64,000 nt of DNA from Providencia rustigianii DSM 4541 (GTDB lineage Bacteria; Pseudomonadota; Gammaproteobacteria; Enterobacterales; Enterobacteriaceae): assembly GCF_000156395.1 (NCBI RefSeq), contig NZ_GG703819.1:53194-117193 (forward strand). Direction: 5' to 3'. The notes beneath the pieces are model-generated. The model worked only from the letters and a program-made list of their open reading frames with translations, made no database searches and was not told the DNA's origin. Both the position numbers and the translations under genes were made by a program. Positions 29,988 through 37,815 of the stretch are shown here, one piece after another (position 1 is the first letter of the stretch; every line of letters starts with the position of its first letter).

Positions 29988-31328
29988 TTATTCTTTAAAA
30001 TCGTTCGCTTCTAAATCATGGCGCCCGAGTAACTTATAGAATTCAGTTCGGTTTCGCCCAGCCATGCGAGCGGCTTGAGTCACATTACCTTTCGTCATCT
30101 GTAATAATTTACGCAAGTAATTCAATTCAAATTGATTACGCGCTTCTACAAATGTCGGTAATGCTGTGTTTTCCCCTTCTAAAGCTTGGCTGACCAATGC
30201 TTCACTGATCACGGGAGATGTGGTGAGTGCCACACATTGCTCAATCACGTTGACCAACTGACGCACATTACCGGGCCAGCTTGCCGTCATTAAACACTTC
30301 ATTGCATCACTGGAAAAACTGCGTACAAATGGCTTATGACGATTTGCGGCTTCACGTAGTAAATGATTAGCTAATAATGGAATATCTTCCGAGCGTTCAT
30401 TCAATGCAGGAATACGTAAATTCACGACATTTAAGCGATAGTAAAGGTCTTCACGAAACTCATTTTTTTCCATCGCTTTAGGTAAATTACGGTGTGTTGC
30501 AGAGATAATCCGTACATCGATATCTAAATCACGGTTACTACCTAGAGGGCGAACTTTTCGCTCCTGTAAAACACGCAGTAATTTAACCTGAAGAGCCATT
30601 GGCATATCGCCAATTTCATCTAAAAATAGGGTTCCGCCGTTGGCAGCAAAAAATAAGCCTTCTCGGCTGCTAACTGCCCCTGTGAAGGCCCCTTTTGCAT
30701 GACCAAATAATTCGGACTCAAGAAGTTGTTCTGGCAACGCACCGCAGTTAATAGCAATAAACGGTTTATGAGCTCGAGGACTCACGCGATGGATTGCCTG
30801 AGCCAAAACCTCTTTCCCCGTACCACTTTGCCCGTTAATTAGCACGCTGACATCTGACTGTGCCACCATGTGAGCTTGCTCAAGTAAGCGGATCATGAGT
30901 GGGCTACGAGTCACAATTCCAGAGCTCCACTCTTCATCGCTCATCGGCGTGGATGACAGAGCTAACGCTTCATCAATAGCTTTATACAATGCATCTTTAT
31001 CAACAGGCTTAGTTAAGAAGCTAAAAACGCCACGCTGAGTGGCCGCAACTGCATCTGGAATAGATCCATGCGCCGTTAGAATAATGACAGGAAGATTTGG
31101 ATGGGCTTTTTGCACCTCATCAAACAGCGCCATGCCATCCATTTCATCCATACGTAAATCACTAATCACTAAATCGATTTTTTCTTTTTGTAGGCGTTTT
31201 AGTGCTTCTGGACCACTCTCTGCTGTCGATACTTTAAAACCTTCACTACTTAAGCGCATGCCTAACAGTTTTAGCAGGCTAGGGTCATCATCAACCAGTA
31301 GTAAGTTCGCTGACTTACGGCTTGTCAT
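29988..31328 (-). CDS. glrR: Sigma54-dependent response regulator GlrR
   Basis: NtrC-type activator of the glmY small RNA gene. Receiver domain with phosphorylation site D57 (VISDLRM), AAA+ domain with Walker A GQSGTGKE and the sigma54-contact loop GAFTGA, and a C-terminal Fis-type helix-turn-helix ([19 protein letters not shown]). 446 residues. Its ATG overlaps the qseG stop codon (ATGA), so it is translationally coupled. Its likely targets, three TGTC-N10-GACA sites, lie upstream of glmY in this same window. Confidence 0.96.
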
Positions 31329-32146
31329 TGTACTTTATTCTCCGCTGGATTTTGTTCTGTTTCGGCTGGCTTAGCTGCATCAGGAGAAGCAGCGACGGCA
31401 TTAGTTACCGCCTTTTCATCTTCTTTTTCAGCTTCATTCGCATTTTTTTTGCGTGAAGAGAGCTGACGCTCAATATCGGTTAAGTTTTCTAATTTGCGTG
31501 ATGTTGAATCTAACTCAAAACGCAGCTTTGCATTATCTTCTTTTAAACGATCAAATTTGGTATCCATTTCCTGCTGTAAGCGTTTATAACGAGAATTAGC
31601 TTCAGCAAGGTTGATAACTTGCACTTGCTGTTCGCGCCAAATCTGTAATAGCGGGCGAACAGGTGTAGGAAAACTTAAGCTATACGTGTTGATGCTATCT
31701 AGCATTTGACGTCGTTCAGTAATCGACGGCTCAGCAGAATTCAATAGGATATTTTTCGTGAATGAACTAGACCAATCAGTCACGTCGATCTGCTTGGCTT
31801 TGTTACGTGCTTGTTCTGCATCCATTCGATCAACACACCCCATCATACGCAACCAATACAGCGCATTCTCTTGTGAGGCAAGCTGCTGATTTTCCCAAAT
31901 GGACTCACAGGATGCATAGCGATAATCTGTCGTTTTGACTTCTGGGATCACCACTTGAGCTAAGGTTTCTAACGGAGATTGTCCATTTTTCACCACACAA
32001 CCAGAAAGAAAGAGAGAAAAGAAAAATATTCCTAACGGCGTAGCGATGCGGAATGATTTATTCGTCACTCTACGGCTATTGAATGTTGTTTTTGGCAATA
32101 TCGTCTTACACAATACAGCCCAAAAATCTGTAGACCTATTTACCAT
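31325..32146 (-). CDS. qseG: QseG/GlrQ outer-membrane lipoprotein
   Basis: Lipoprotein that in E. coli interacts with the kinase GlrK (QseE) and modulates its activity. A hydrophobic segment and lipobox FLSGC place the acylated cysteine at residue 50, later than usual because of a roughly 35-residue polar N-terminal extension; a later start is possible. The C-terminal coiled coil contains STRKLENLTDIERQLSSRK, nearly identical to E. coli QseG. Its start is 2 bases after the glrK stop codon, and its stop overlaps glrR. Confidence 0.9.
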   Translation of the reverse strand: MVNRSTDFWAVLCKTILPKTTFNSRRVTNKSFRIATPLGIFFFSLFLSGCVVKNGQSPLETLAQVVIPEVKTTDYRYASCESIWENQQLASQENALYWLRMMGCVDRMDAEQARNKAKQIDVTDWSSSFTKNILLNSAEPSITERRQMLDSINTYSLSFPTPVRPLLQIWREQQVQVINLAEANSRYKRLQQEMDTKFDRLKEDNAKLRFELDSTSRKLENLTDIERQLSSRKKNANEAEKEDEKAVTNAVAASPDAAKPAETEQNPAENKVQ

Positions 32147-32148
32147 TG

Positions 32149-33588
32149 TTATTCGTTCTCTGCAGTTAAAGGCAGTTCAATTCGAAAGCAGACATCCGCT
32201 GATTTGTGGGGAACCAATGATAGCTCACCGCCCATCTGTTTAATGCAATCTTGCGCGATGCTAAGCCCCAGTCCACTTCCTTTTACGGCGCCTTTTCTTT
32301 GGAGGCTTCCTTGATAGAAAGGTTCAAAAATCATATTTTGCTCAGACTCAGGGATTGGAGTGCCGGTATTGGCAATCTCAATCACTAATTTATTACCTGT
32401 TCGTCGGCTAGAGATCCAAATATTACCTGATTCGCCGCCATAGTGCACCGCATTGGAGTAGATATTATCAATAACTCTTCCGAGCAGAGTCGGCTCCGCG
32501 AGGCAACTTTCCACTTTTAAGCGAATTTCCGTTTTTATCTCTTTCGCTCTTGCTGGCAAATTATGTGCATTCACAATGTCATCGATCAACTTATTCAGAT
32601 CAACTAATTGTGCAACAGGCGGCTCATCCACTAATTTTCGATTATAGTCGAGCAACTGTTCAATAAGTTGCTGAAGGTGCTTACTACTATGATCCAGTAT
32701 CTCAACAACCTCTTTTTGTGAGCTGGTCAACGGTCCGGCAACTTCATCTGCCAATAACTCCGTCCCCTCACGCATACTGGCTAACGGTGTTTTTAGTTCA
32801 TGGGAAATATGGCGTAAAAATTCATGGCGCTGAGATTCGAGCCAAGCAAGCCTTTCACTCAACCAAATAATTCGTTGGGCAATGGTTCTTAACTCTCGAG
32901 GACCTTTAAATCCGTCAATATCATTTTCTAGCGTCAGACCTGTTCCTAAGCGATTAATCATCCGTTCGATCACTTTTACCGGACCAATAATCATTCGAGT
33001 AAATAGCGTAACCAATAATGCACTGAGTAAAAACAGAATTAATGTTTGCCAACCAAATAGCTGCCCTTTATTTGCGATGGCTTTTTGCAACTGATCCCCA
33101 CGACTAAAAATAACATCGCGGGTTTGTTGCACAAGTTGTGTATTTTGCGCAGAAAACTGTTCTAACGCTTTAGTCGTAAGCTGGGTTGGTTCATTGCTCT
33201 CGCAACTGATCGCTTTTAGCTGCTTTAATGCATTTACCAATGCAGAGCTATCCGCATTATCTGGCAGGATGGTTTTCTGGCGTTCTAACATCTGCTCGTA
33301 ATCGGCAAACTGTTTGTGATATTGCGTTTGTAATGCAGGATCTTGTAGAACGCAATATTGCCGATAGCTACGCTCCATTTCCAACGCGAGACTACTCATT
33401 GCTTCGCTACGACGGGTATCTAGCAGTGTTGTTTTATTAATATTTGCCGCTTGATTACTCAATTGCTCAAGGCTTTGGTATGCCTGATAAGCCAGCACCA
33501 ATAAAGGTAGTAAAACTAGCCAAAAAGCCATGACTACCAGTTGCCTCAATGAGCGCGGGAAAAGACGCCATTTGCTCAAACCGTTCAT
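32149..33588 (-). CDS. glrK: Sensor histidine kinase GlrK (QseE)
   Basis: Membrane kinase that phosphorylates GlrR. Transmembrane helices at about 15-32 and 176-196 flank a periplasmic helical sensor domain; then HAMP, the H-box FLRHISHELKTPLASMREG and an HATPase domain (NIYSNAVHYGG; GSGLGLSIAQDC). 479 residues. First gene of glrK-qseG-glrR. A sigma54-type promoter lies about 100 bases upstream. Confidence 0.95.
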   Translation of the reverse strand: MNGLSKWRLFPRSLRQLVVMAFWLVLLPLLVLAYQAYQSLEQLSNQAANINKTTLLDTRRSEAMSSLALEMERSYRQYCVLQDPALQTQYHKQFADYEQMLERQKTILPDNADSSALVNALKQLKAISCESNEPTQLTTKALEQFSAQNTQLVQQTRDVIFSRGDQLQKAIANKGQLFGWQTLILFLLSALLVTLFTRMIIGPVKVIERMINRLGTGLTLENDIDGFKGPRELRTIAQRIIWLSERLAWLESQRHEFLRHISHELKTPLASMREGTELLADEVAGPLTSSQKEVVEILDHSSKHLQQLIEQLLDYNRKLVDEPPVAQLVDLNKLIDDIVNAHNLPARAKEIKTEIRLKVESCLAEPTLLGRVIDNIYSNAVHYGGESGNIWISSRRTGNKLVIEIANTGTPIPESEQNMIFEPFYQGSLQRKGAVKGSGLGLSIAQDCIKQMGGELSLVPHKSADVCFRIELPLTAENE

Positions 33589-33689
33589 CTCTTACCTATT
33601 TATATGTCTTTCAATGGTAGCAGAAGTCGCCCCTAAGCGGAAAATTCTGTTTGCATTGGGATATTGGCGAGTGTGCCATATCGATTAAA

Positions 33690-33707
33690 TAGCAATGAAC
33701 GTGCCAG
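33690..33707 (-). promoter_or_regulatory. Sigma54-type promoter directly upstream of glrK
   Basis: CTGGCACGTTCATTGCTA on the minus strand fits the -24/-12 consensus YTGGCACGrNNNTTGCW, with ten bases between the GG and GC elements. The predicted start is near 33680, giving a leader of about 90 bases to the glrK ATG with no gene in between. Confidence 0.7.
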
Positions 33708-33799: not shown

Positions 33800-34049
33800 G
33801 GAAGGCGGATAAATGAGAATTCCCATTTATCCGCCAGCGATACTTTACAGCTTATATATGACTATGTCTTTTACTAAAGATAATCATATAGGTGGTGCCT
33901 CACTCAACGTGTCGCCCTGTGTTTGATAAGGCTCGAAAGCGAATATCTATGGTGTTGGACGGTAGGCACCTTACTTTGGCATCATTCGGGTTTTATGTGG
34001 TATGTTCCCAACAAATTTGGACCTACATAAGCAATTGAATGAGCAACTG
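33800..34049 (-). ncRNA. glmY: Small RNA GlmY
   Basis: GlmY sequesters the adaptor RapZ, which protects GlmZ and so raises glmS translation for amino-sugar synthesis. The minus strand from about 34049 shows blocks I recall from E. coli GlmY/GlmZ: TTGCTCATTC near the 5' end, ACATAAAACCCGAATGATGC, GGTGCCTACCGTCCA, CGCTTTCGAGCCTTATCA, and CGTTGAGTGAGGCACC (about 33894-33909). The glmS-pairing tract of GlmZ is not seen. Position next to glrK, the dual promoter and GlrR sites agree. The 5' end follows from the promoters; the 3' end is set at the hairpin 33804-33835 (12-base stem GGCGGATAAATG), which lacks a clear U-run, so the end is approximate. Confidence 0.88.
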
Positions 34050-34191: not shown

Positions 34192-34305
34192 TGTCTCCAA
34201 TTTAAGACACAGACCAACCTGTTTTTTAATGTTCTTATTTATCATCAAGATAAATGTCACCTTTTGGCGACATCGCACCCCATGGTTTGTCGCTAATTTT
34301 AGACA
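34192..34305. promoter_or_regulatory. Three GlrR activator sites upstream of glmY
   Basis: Three perfect copies of the GlrR motif TGTC-N10-GACA at 34192-34209, 34255-34272 and 34288-34305, roughly 140-255 bases upstream of the glmY start. The spacing is typical for bacterial enhancer-binding proteins. The sites also sit just upstream of the divergent methyltransferase gene at 34399. Confidence 0.88.
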
Positions 34306-34398: not shown

Positions 34399-35433
34399 AT
34401 GAACAACTCTCTACCCAATAATCATAAATTTAATCAGTTAGAGCTTGGTATTCAGCTCCTGAATAAAGCAACAGGATTCATGTTCCATGCAGCACTACGT
34501 GCAGCCGTAAAATTGAAGCTAGCAGAAACACTTGAAGCTCACCCAAAGACCGCTGAACAAATAGCACAAGAAATAGGTGCAATTCCCACGGTTATTCAAC
34601 AAATATTACGAATACTGGCGACTCAGAATATATTCACATCCACATACGATGAATGCTTTACACTGACACCAGAAGCCGAATTCTTATTAGAATCTCATCC
34701 CTATTCTTTACGTAATGCGGTGTTAATGTTCACTGACCAAACATTTTGGATGCCATCCTACTATTTATCCGATATGGCTAAAGGGGTACCCATCTTTGAA
34801 AAATTGTTTGGTGGAACCTTCTATGAGTATTGGGAAAAAAATGTCGATTTACCTGAAAACTTTCATGCTGGCATGGCTTCATATTCAAGGTTAGAAAATC
34901 CATTTATCGTTGATAAATACCCCTTCCCTGAAAATAGCCTTATTGCAGATATTGCAGGAGGACGCGGAGGTTTATTACTTGAAGTATTAAAATCCAATCC
35001 CCTAACACATGGAATATTATTTGATAGGCTCATCATTACTGACAAACATCTATTACACCAACTAGGGGATGATTCTCGCTGGGAAACACAGACGGGCTCA
35101 TTTTTTGATTCAACCCCTGCGGCCGATTTTTACTTACTTAAAGCCATTACTCACGACTGGGATAATGAAAAATTAATTAATATATTCAATGTAATACGTC
35201 GTTCCATGAAAAAAACATCAAAATTACTCTTAATTGATACTCATGTCATCAACGATAACAAACCCAATTTTGGTAAAAATATAGGGCTTATCTGTTCAAA
35301 TCTAATGATCGGTGCCGATGGAAGGACCAAAGAAGAGTTAGAAAATTTGCTCGCTCAAGCTGATCTAAAAATCAATCGCATCATTAAAACGGACTGTCAT
35401 TTATCGATTACAGAAGTACAACCTAACACTTAA
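34399..35433 (+). CDS. SAM-dependent O-methyltransferase (plant/fungal-type family 2)
   Basis: 344 residues with an N-terminal winged-helix dimerisation domain (about 20-95: LKLAETLEAHPKTAEQIAQEIG...) and a C-terminal Rossmann methyltransferase domain with the SAM loop ADIAGGRGGLLLEVL (about 183-197) and the general-base region LLKAITHDWDNE (H252). Such enzymes methylate hydroxyls of small aromatic or polyketide metabolites. No biosynthetic neighbours are present, so the substrate cannot be named. It is divergent from glmY/glrK and opens the accessory block between glrK and purL. The flanking 222 bases towards uhpA contain no clear gene. Confidence 0.85.
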   Translation: MNNSLPNNHKFNQLELGIQLLNKATGFMFHAALRAAVKLKLAETLEAHPKTAEQIAQEIGAIPTVIQQILRILATQNIFTSTYDECFTLTPEAEFLLESHPYSLRNAVLMFTDQTFWMPSYYLSDMAKGVPIFEKLFGGTFYEYWEKNVDLPENFHAGMASYSRLENPFIVDKYPFPENSLIADIAGGRGGLLLEVLKSNPLTHGILFDRLIITDKHLLHQLGDDSRWETQTGSFFDSTPAADFYLLKAITHDWDNEKLINIFNVIRRSMKKTSKLLLIDTHVINDNKPNFGKNIGLICSNLMIGADGRTKEELENLLAQADLKINRIIKTDCHLSITEVQPNT

Positions 35434-35655
35434 TAATATCAAACACTCGCTTTATGAATCTTCAGAGGCGAGTTCAATTCCATCTAGAAATACCACAATA
35501 ACAAAAGAAAATATTGCCATCCGATTTATTAGCGCTATGATGCCGCGCGTTTCATTTCTGATGGACGTCAGAATTTCAAACTATGTTCCTAGCTAATCTT
35601 TCCCTATATTGATATAAGACTGGCAAATGGTCACTTACTTACTATCGAAACTACA

Positions 35656-36282
35656 ATGATAAAAATAGCCTTGATTGACGACCATATTGTCGTGCGCTCC
35701 GGTTTCGCCCAACTGCTAACATTAGAGCCTGATATTAGCATCGTGGGTCAATATGCAAGCGCTCAAGAAGCCTGGCCTCACTTAATTAGCCTTGATATCG
35801 ATGTTGCTATCATGGATATCTCAATGCCAGATGAAAGCGGTTTACAGTTACTCACCCGCTTACGTAAGAAAAAACCCGATTTTCGTACCATTATTTTAAG
35901 TATTTATGATACACCCGCATTTGTGCAGAGCGCACTGGATGCAGGGGCTAGCGCCTATTTAACAAAATGTTGTGGGCCAGAAGAGTTAGTTCAGGCGGTC
36001 CGTTCTGTTCATCAAGGCGGTTGCTACTTATGTGCCGATGCAATGCGAGCATTACGTCAAACACCACAGCAGCAACATGGCATTCAAGAACTCACTAACC
36101 GTGAGCGCGAAGTTTTTGACTTATTAGTGTCTGGATTAAGCGTCAAAGTCATTGCTGAGCAACTCAATCTGAGTCATAAAACAGTGCATGTTCATCGAGC
36201 AAATGTTTTAGGTAAATTACAGTGTGATAGCACCATTGAGCTGGTTCACTACGCGTTAGAGCATAATATTATCTCAAGGTAG
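35656..36282 (+). CDS. uhpA: UhpA-type response regulator
   Basis: LuxR/NarL-family regulator very close to E. coli UhpA, which activates hexose-phosphate uptake genes. Receiver domain with D54 (AIMDISMPDESG) and the UhpA-like opening ALIDDHIVVRSGFAQLL-LEPD; LuxR-type helix-turn-helix at about 142-200 (LTNREREVFDLLVSGLSVKVIAEQLNLSHKTVHVHRAN). 208 residues. The ribosome site is weak. It is first of six co-directional genes; its target is presumably the afuABC genes downstream in place of uhpT. Confidence 0.9.
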   Translation: MIKIALIDDHIVVRSGFAQLLTLEPDISIVGQYASAQEAWPHLISLDIDVAIMDISMPDESGLQLLTRLRKKKPDFRTIILSIYDTPAFVQSALDAGASAYLTKCCGPEELVQAVRSVHQGGCYLCADAMRALRQTPQQQHGIQELTNREREVFDLLVSGLSVKVIAEQLNLSHKTVHVHRANVLGKLQCDSTIELVHYALEHNIISR

Positions 36283-36288
36283 ATATTG

Positions 36289-37815
36289 ATGAATAAAGCG
36301 CTGCGCTTAGGATTGCAGTCCCTATTTTTGTTATTTACTTATTCATTAATTTGGATTGGGTTGTGGATTATTGGTTTTTATCTCAGCCAAAATAGTTTTC
36401 AAGCTACGCTATTTCTACCCCAAGCCTTACGCCTCACCTTGATGATATTGCTCTGGCGGCGATATTGGCCGACCATTTTATTATCTGAAGGGCTACTCAA
36501 TTACTGGCTTGCTGAAGAGCAACTATTATCACAGCCTATTTTATTACTTTCCCCGCTCCTCAGTTTAGCGGTCGCCGTCGTAATCCAAAATATTTGGTGG
36601 CGCTATACGCTGTATTGGCAACGGCTAATTTTGCTCCTTGCTGGCGTTACTGCCAACAGTATCCTCAACGCCCTACTGTTTGGTTTACTGTCTCAATACT
36701 CAATTAGCCAACTATTTTTAACCACGTTTACTGGCGGAATACTACTATCCCCCTTTGTTTATCTCATTTATGAATATCTGCATGAGCAGCATTATCATAT
36801 GCTACTCGACTATGGTACACCTGATAAACAATTACGCACATCACTGATTATTTGGGGATTTTTATTTTGCTTGGTCGGTTTAAGTGCGCAAATTTTCTTT
36901 GCTCCAGAGATTGAACAGCTGATTGTTTTGTTAGTTTTTATTCCCAATATTTTTATGGCTTACCGATATGGATGGCAAGGCGGGGTTCTATCCGCATTAT
37001 TGGGGAGCTTAATTATCACTTTTGCAAGGCAGTTCCAAGGCGCATTTGATGACTTACAAGAATTACAATTATTCTTAAGCTCTCAAGCCTTAATTGGTAT
37101 TGGACTGGGAATTGCGGTAAGTCGCCAAAAACAACTTGCCGGTAACTTACAGCGCTATCGCCAACGATTGGAGCAAGAACTGCAAACTCGCCGAGACCTG
37201 ATGCGTAAATTGGTACACACTGAGGAAGATATCAAGAAAGATATTGCGCGAGAATTACATGATGAAATTGGGCAAAACATTACCGCTATTCAAATCCAGT
37301 CGATGCTAGTGAAAAAAACAGCACCCAATGAATTAAGTCGCCAAGCTGCCAGTCAAATCAATGAGCTAGCACAACAAATCCATCAAGCAACCCGCCAATT
37401 ACTACGTCAATTACGTCCTCCCGTTCTCGATGAAATGTCACTAGAAAACGCCCTCACACATCTCATCGCCGAATTTGCTTTTGAAGAAAATAATATCCAG
37501 TGCACGTTTTATTATGGGCTAAAAGAAACCCCGGCCAATGAAACCGTTTTATTCACCCTCTACCGACTTGTTCAAGAGCTTCTCAATAACATCAGCAAAC
37601 ATGCTAAAGCGACACACATTCATATTTCACTCGACCAAATAGGTGACTCGATCCAGCTTATTGCCGAGGATAATGGCGTCGGTATTCCCTTTAGCAAACG
37701 AACTTCTGGCTTTGGTTTACGGGGAATTGAAGAGCGAGTGACCGCTTTAGGTGGCGATTGGACACTGACAACGCAAAATGGCACCAAAATAATTGTTAAC
37801 TTGCCCACATTTTGA
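36289..37815 (+). CDS. uhpB: UhpB-type sensor histidine kinase
   Basis: Membrane kinase with eight or so N-terminal helices of the MASE1 type (1-285), a coiled linker, HisKA_3 domain with H325 (IARELHDEIGQNITAIQIQS) and a C-terminal ATPase domain (DNGVGIPFSKRTSGFGLRGIEERV). About 508 residues, near the 500 of E. coli UhpB. The ATG at 36289 is used; a TTG lies just before it. It begins 6 bases after uhpA. In E. coli UhpB needs UhpC to sense external glucose-6-phosphate. Confidence 0.9.
   Translation: MNKALRLGLQSLFLLFTYSLIWIGLWIIGFYLSQNSFQATLFLPQALRLTLMILLWRRYWPTILLSEGLLNYWLAEEQLLSQPILLLSPLLSLAVAVVIQNIWWRYTLYWQRLILLLAGVTANSILNALLFGLLSQYSISQLFLTTFTGGILLSPFVYLIYEYLHEQHYHMLLDYGTPDKQLRTSLIIWGFLFCLVGLSAQIFFAPEIEQLIVLLVFIPNIFMAYRYGWQGGVLSALLGSLIITFARQFQGAFDDLQELQLFLSSQALIGIGLGIAVSRQKQLAGNLQRYRQRLEQELQTRRDLMRKLVHTEEDIKKDIARELHDEIGQNITAIQIQSMLVKKTAPNELSRQAASQINELAQQIHQATRQLLRQLRPPVLDEMSLENALTHLIAEFAFEENNIQCTFYYGLKETPANETVLFTLYRLVQELLNNISKHAKATHIHISLDQIGDSIQLIAEDNGVGIPFSKRTSGFGLRGIEERVTALGGDWTLTTQNGTKIIVNLPTF

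Follow-up and report, generated by a model that had tools for sequence, protein, structure and literature searches.

P2, a second sigma54-type promoter element, is found between glmY and the glrK-qseG-glrR operon in Providencia, downstream of the sigma54 element of the small-RNA gene glmY itself (P1). The presence of the element was confirmed, it is conserved, and in the set of genomes examined it is confined to Providencia. To judge from its sequence, P2 very likely works as a sigma54 promoter. Its activator is likely GlrR, bound at sites upstream of glmY, which would create a positive loop. The element was located in a stretch of 64,000 nucleotides from Providencia rustigianii DSM 4541. This whole stretch is referred to as the window, and coordinates are positions within it unless stated otherwise.

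A perfect sigma54 element upstream of glrK

The element and the operon that follows it comprise these features:

33691..33706, minus strand: P2, sigma54 -24/-12 element of glrK, TGGCACGTTCATTGCT; perfect consensus, 18.9 bits, kept in 24 of 24 Providencia genomes
33679..33680, minus strand: predicted P2 transcript start
33614..33622, minus strand: extended -10 like element, TGCTACCAT, which aligns with the glrK sigma70 promoter of other genera
32149..33588, minus strand: glrK (qseE), histidine kinase
31325..32146, minus strand: qseG-like lipoprotein gene, named by position and order; the gene order is as in E. coli
29988..31328, minus strand: glrR (qseF), response regulator with sigma54-activator domain and GAFTGA loop

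Read from 33706 to 33691 on the minus strand, P2 is TGGCACGTTCATTGCT, and inclusion of the preceding C moves the end of the element to 33707. It carries the GG-N10-GC of its class within a near-consensus TGGCAC-N5-TTGCW, and the rpoN gene is present in all 24 Providencia genomes. Sigma54 promoters have an rpoN-dependent start about 13 nt past the -12 GC. The P2 transcript start was predicted by applying the offset between the Rfam GlmY start (34048) and the glmY element (34075-34060), with the -12 GC as the reference. P2 is about 100 nt from glrK, which starts at 33588, and no Rfam RNA was found between the two; this fits the initial annotation, which had placed the element about 100 bases from glrK with no RNA or gene in between.

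P2 is the sole exact match to TGGCAC-N5-TTGCW in the window. Loose matches with at most two mismatches number 35 in the window against a chance mean of 37.9, and hence are not enriched. In pattern searches of the 3,978,644-base genome, the exact pattern occurs seven times and a reversed control pattern twice. Of the six exact matches other than P2, three lie within open reading frames and three are directly upstream of genes that we take to be prpB, glnK-amtB and pspA, based on protein features and neighbouring genes. These three are classic targets of sigma54.

When scored with a matrix of 50 E. coli ChIP-seq sites (Table 1 of PMC4591121, excerpt), P2 reaches 18.9 bits and the glmY promoter P1 15.4 bits. 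The earlier statement that the element resembles the sigma54 consensus more closely than does the glmY promoter is thus borne out, P2 being a perfect match. Scores of at least 15 bits were reached by 76 of 48,000 sequences in a first-order Markov simulation of the 250 bp upstream of glrK. P2 does not appear to be a copy of the glmY promoter, as the spacers of the two elements differ. Sigma54 binding sites are not necessarily active promoters (PMC4591121, excerpt), and this general observation counts against the reading of P2 as a promoter.

Conservation and selection within Providencia

The Providencia sample consists of 24 genomes, all of which contain GlrK. A second sigma54 element between glmY and glrK is present in every one of them, with scores of 15.2 to 20.0 bits, and TGGCA-N6-TTGC is invariant among the 24 P2 elements. 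The element is retained at a nearly fixed place before the gene: its distance to the glrK start codon is 116 to 132 nt in 23 genomes and 203 nt in the other (L050). The glmY promoter, by contrast, is 442 to 910 nt from glrK in 23 genomes and 4,161 nt away in genome G136. Because the distance from P2 to glrK is nearly fixed while that from glmY to glrK varies widely, P2 travels with glrK.

The DNA around P2 aligns poorly across Providencia clades and is variable in length. Information per column is 1.65 bits in the 17 columns of P2, compared with 0.44 in the 70 columns upstream and 0.36 in the 45 columns downstream, as calculated from 17 of the 24 sequences, which are representatives chosen to thin near-identical ones. 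Low conservation past P2 bears on the possibility that the element makes its own small RNA or leader and that glrK is not its target. In other enterobacteria, sigma54 is indeed used to transcribe the small RNAs of glmY and glmZ (PMC3844500, excerpt). However, besides the poor conservation of the 45 nt past P2 and the lack of an Rfam RNA there, our scan revealed no terminator-like site on the minus strand between P2 and glrK, so that a separate RNA has very little probability.

Third codon positions of glrK diverge by up to about 0.5 between Providencia clades. The tree of these positions (24 tips, length 13.1) was used in 400 runs of a neutral simulation of a 17-mer that starts at 18.0 bits. 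At the full rate, a mean of 0.21 of the 24 tips had at least 15 bits. All 24 tips were kept in 0 of 400 runs at the full, half, quarter and tenth rates, in 2% of runs at one twentieth of the rate, and in 18.5% at one fiftieth. P2 has therefore evolved under strong constraint.

That P2 is a functionless relic or a product of chance would be in keeping with the loose matches, which are at the chance level in the window, and with the three of seven exact genome matches that are inside open reading frames. However, P2 is conserved and its flanks are not, and neutral change at even 10% of the third-position rate preserved all 24 copies in none of the 400 runs. These data leave the chance explanation extremely improbable.

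In loci L036 to L046, insertions of variable length occur between the glmY hairpin and P2, and several of them have blocks in common, for example GCAATCCGAATTATTTAGGG. This pattern suggests an intergenic repeat element of those Providencia genomes.

Absence outside Providencia

The comparison outside the genus covered 133 distinct loci among a total of 136 (28 that represent one per sampled genus, 37 more, a further 70, and E. coli K-12). Partial or degraded GlrK copies (for example, in G026, G028, G051 and G104) were left out of the set, and the upstream sequence before glrK is limited to 333 nt in L007 and 313 nt in L030. None of the 133 distinct loci has a 12-bit sigma54 site within 255 nt before glrK, nor does any non-Providencia locus examined have a second 12-bit site between the glmY element and glrK. 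The loci that lack P2 include those of Moellerella, Proteus, Xenorhabdus, Photorhabdus, Arsenophonus and E. coli. Moellerella wisconsensis, whose GlrK is 77% identical, is the closest outgroup.

The initial annotation had proposed conservation in Providencia and Proteus genomes as a check. The element is indeed present in all 24 Providencia genomes, but it is absent from all 11 Proteus loci. The same annotation treated the arrangement as not known from E. coli. In the K-12 locus, no sigma54 site of at least 10 bits was found between that of glmY and glrK.

Three loci of other genera have sites that fall under the 12-bit cut and were taken as chance matches: L023 (11.7 bits at -69), L075 (10.4 bits at -60) and L018 (9.2 bits at -70). 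An additional 12-bit site is located farther upstream than that of glmY in L014, L128 and L156. L007, with its 333 nt of available sequence, and both Arsenophonus loci have no 12-bit site in reach. In the latter (L122 and L126), no sigma54 element of 12 bits occurs within 1,200 nt before glrK, so the glmY promoter may have been lost or displaced.

Because P2 is present in all 24 Providencia genomes and absent from the outgroups examined, including Moellerella, its most likely origin is a gain on the branch that leads to Providencia. The arrangement was apparently gained once and then selectively kept.

The glmY region and candidate activator sites

The region upstream of P2 includes these features:

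34288..34305, minus strand: GlrR-type site TGTC-N10-GACA, farthest from P1
34255..34272, minus strand: GlrR-type site TGTC-N10-GACA, middle
34192..34209, minus strand: GlrR-type site TGTC-N10-GACA, nearest P1
34060..34075, minus strand: P1, glmY sigma54 element TGGCACGATGTGTGCA, 15.4 bits
33889..34048, minus strand: GlmY small RNA (RF00128, 132.4 bits)
33855..33890, minus strand: A+U-rich hairpin past the GlmY core (z -3.1), which holds the imperfect GlrR site of the initial annotation
33804..33835, minus strand: strong hairpin at the position of the E. coli glmY terminator (z -6.1), without a clear U run

P1 corresponds to the glmY promoter of E. coli and other enterobacteria, which it resembles in its TGTC-N10-GACA activator sites and its promoter class. 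Unlike that promoter, P2 is an additional sigma54 element, placed downstream of the shared cluster of sites and ahead of a protein operon, and is found only in Providencia among the genomes examined. A sigma70-type site (TTGAAA-17-CATAAT, minus strand, 34084-34056) overlaps the glmY sigma54 element, and an overlapping site of this type has been described for glmY in other enterobacteria. Upstream of glmY, positions 34399-37815 of the window contain a methyltransferase-like gene and, adjacent to it, genes for a response regulator and a sensor kinase, names that we assign presumptively from protein features; purL occupies this location in E. coli.

The three GlrR-type sites upstream of glmY are found in all 24 Providencia genomes, each with at most one mismatch, and their spacing is nearly constant. 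P2 therefore has TGTC-N10-GACA sites upstream, as promoters of the GlrR regulon do, without the short site distance seen at glmY. In the window, the three sites are 484 to 580 bp from P2. Across 23 Providencia genomes the distances range from 418 to 983 bp, with the nearest site at 418 to 887 bp. In the remaining genome (G136, locus L135), two genes on the opposite strand, encoding 342 and 535 amino acids, are inserted between glmY and glrK, and the sites are about 4.1 to 4.2 kb from P2, which is nonetheless kept. In that genome, looping over 4 kb may work, the insertion may be recent, or GlrR may not be the activator. No conserved GlrR-type site was found close to P2 in the 24 Providencia loci. 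The variable distance of 418 to 983 bp, the roughly 4-kb distance in G136 and the lack of a conserved nearby site all count against looping by GlrR.

The initial annotation had also offered an imperfect GlrR site at 33865-33882 as a place from which GlrR might act. This proximal site exists (TATC-N10-GACA on the minus strand, 33882-33865), but it occurs in only 7 of 24 Providencia loci and is part of a hairpin, so we rejected it as a general feature. An A+U-rich hairpin was predicted for this region in the window and in each of two further sequences, one of which, from the P. stuartii-like clade, retains the same stem without the TGTC and GACA letters.

As a pattern, the GlrR-type palindrome was rejected as a genome-wide predictor, because it occurs at 28 places in the genome and the reversed control at 36; this lack of enrichment counts against control of P2 by GlrR. 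The surroundings inspected were those of the group of three at glmY and of a single copy at glmZ in the same genome, and the latter counts in favor of GlrR. In the stretch that contains this locus (L196, G000:C34:980500-984000; positions are within that stretch), glmZ is at 1225-1429, the sigma54 element TGGCATGCATTCTGCA is directly before it at 1441-1456, and a perfect TGTC-N10-GACA lies about 200 bp upstream of the element at 1656-1673. Loose sigma54 matches there number two against 0.9 expected, and the exact one is TGGCATGCATTCTGCA. Because a GlrR-type site and a sigma54 element occur at each gene, both glmY and glmZ look GlrR-controlled in this organism.

The genome of the window encodes six strong sigma54-activator domains, five of them with a GAFTGA-type loop. 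We take the five proteins to be GlrR, an FhlA-like protein, NtrC, PrpR and PspF, according to their features. Thus, it is possible that P2 works but is opened by another activator (NtrC-, PspF-, FhlA- or PrpR-like), in which case the operon would respond to an additional signal, for example nitrogen or membrane stress. The number of such proteins, the lack of a conserved nearby GlrR site, and the survival of P2 when the GlrR sites are 4.1 to 4.2 kb away are compatible with this alternative.

The scans for activator sites at P2 covered two types, GlrR-type and NtrC-like sites. The NtrC site consensus is TGCACC-N5-GGTGCA. With up to three mismatches allowed to this consensus, a search of the 1 kb upstream of P2 gave no NtrC-like site in any of the 24 Providencia loci, and control by NtrC through a conserved NtrC site was therefore rejected. 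In L048, L050 and L051, P2 is only about 48 to 54 nt past the glmY hairpin, a gap into which a separate enhancer would hardly fit. The three GlrR sites upstream of glmY are the sole conserved candidates found with the two types of site scanned. On this evidence, control of P2 by another activator is unlikely.

Because there is no conserved nearby GlrR site, no NtrC-like site and little room for an enhancer, action of GlrR from the glmY sites is the most economical reading. The suggestion in the initial annotation that GlrR acts on P2 from those sites likewise seems the best available, given sites 484 to 580 bp away that are present in all 24 genomes and no other conserved candidate.

Probable basal transcription and possible read-through from glmY

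The Providencia sequence that aligns with the sigma70 -10 element of other genera is TGCTACCAT or a close form. TAGCAT begins 30 to 50 nt before glrK in 34 of 37 further genera (the exceptions are L144, L170 and L180), and it is also present before glrK in E. coli and several relatives. The sigma70 start of E. coli qseE is 25 bp upstream (PMC6075780, excerpt). The glrK operon of Providencia probably has a basal sigma70 promoter too. Two results count against such a promoter. A simple sigma70 scan listed no site before glrK, not even TGCTACCAT, and found five sites in the region as a whole against 4.3 expected. Also, a 548-bp fragment of P. mirabilis that spans -553 to -6 of qseE was without promoter activity (PMC8745638, excerpt).

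Retention of this counterpart of the E. coli sigma70 -10 element means that the operon may not depend wholly on sigma54. The initial annotation had suggested that the operon itself would be sigma54-dependent. A conserved sigma54-type element before glrK agrees with part of this proposal, whereas complete dependence is doubtful.

Transcription from glmY might also reach glrK. The annotated 3' end of E. coli GlmY is directly past the stem that corresponds to the hairpin at 33804-33835. Counterparts of this hairpin were found in 22 of 24 Providencia loci by a search in which the outer stem had to contain GGCGG and CCGCC, and which did not pick up L045 or L052; the inner stem varies in sequence and retains its pairing. 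Because the hairpin has no clear U run, read-through from glmY into glrK is possible.

Perhaps P2 binds sigma54 RNA polymerase mainly as a block, with the closed complex stopping read-through from glmY or modulating the downstream sigma70 promoter. The location of P2 between the glmY hairpin and the sigma70-like -10 element would suit such a role, as would the co-transcription of glmY and qseEGF in P. mirabilis (PMC8745638, excerpt). However, a promoter requires just such a near-consensus sequence, pointing toward glrK from an almost constant distance, whereas a block presumably needs no fixed orientation. Also, three of the other six exact consensus sites precede prpB, glnK and pspA. A mainly blocking function thus appears improbable.

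Proposed mechanism

As a promoter, P2 would serve glrK-qseG-glrR and would have arisen in the ancestor of Providencia. Sigma54 RNA polymerase would wait at P2. From its three sites on the far side of glmY, phosphorylated GlrR would reach across the gene by looping and open two promoters, P1 for glmY and P2 for glrK. The sigma70 promoter nearer to glrK probably supplies a basal level. With the kinase active, production of GlmY would rise together with that of the kinase, the lipoprotein and the regulator, which amounts to positive autoregulation.

In its fullest form, this model consists of one enhancer and two tandem sigma54 promoters, with GlrR firing glmY and, by looping over the small-RNA gene and the terminator-like hairpin, its own operon. 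The result would be a genus-specific positive feedback switch, possibly bistable, on the control of cell-wall precursors, with a distance tolerance of 0.4 to 4 kb. We favor this complete scheme by a little.

Comparison with known systems

The qseEGF locus of E. coli K-12 has the same genes and the aligned -10 element just before glrK. It differs in its sigma70 promoter and its lack of autoregulation (PMC6075780, excerpt), and it has no sigma54 site of at least 10 bits between that of glmY and glrK. Transcriptional autoregulation was tested with E. coli qseEGF fusions and none was found (PMC6075780, excerpt), which counts against a loop, although E. coli lacks P2.

The glmY-qseEGF locus of P. 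mirabilis is similar in that GlrR controls the kinase operon, in that organism through co-transcription from the glmY promoter (PMC8745638, excerpt). It differs in the absence of P2, as in all 11 Proteus loci, and its 548-bp fragment was inactive as a promoter (PMC8745638, excerpt). The lack of P2 in Proteus is in line with this shared use of the glmY promoter.

Another related system is zraP/zraSR of E. coli, in which a two-component operon likewise has its own sigma54 element and its own regulator bound upstream. The regulator sites of this system are between the two divergent genes. As in zraSR, the glrK operon has a sigma54 element before the genes for its own kinase and regulator. The systems differ in that the zraP and zraSR promoters are divergent, whereas those described here are in tandem, with a small-RNA gene and a hairpin between them. 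The zraS sigma54 site is listed as OS39 (PMC4591121, excerpt), ChIP-exo peaks are available (PMC7657598), and autoregulation has been stated (PMC12316311).

An arrangement of the P2 type was not found in print in the open-licence literature searched. In the available portions of their main texts, two E. coli sigma54 surveys mention glmY and not qseE or glrK (PMC4591121, PMC8743547). Similarly, the available part of a Salmonella survey mentions glmY and glmZ and not glrK, qseE or yfhK (PMC3844500), and that of a comparative sigma54 study mentions glmY and not yfhK or Providencia (PMC3162934). A Yersinia survey does not mention glmY or related names (PMC7657599).

Implications

Providencia would represent a third design for this pathway, in addition to that of E. 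coli, which lacks autoregulation, and that of Proteus, in which the operon is co-transcribed with glmY. The locus would offer a clean evolutionary case of a two-component system that acquires a feedback promoter. It would also be a natural test of the reach of a sigma54 activator and of the use of one enhancer for two tandem promoters. Since the initial step in making cell-wall precursors is under the control of GlmY, Providencia may differ in how strong this response is and in its memory.
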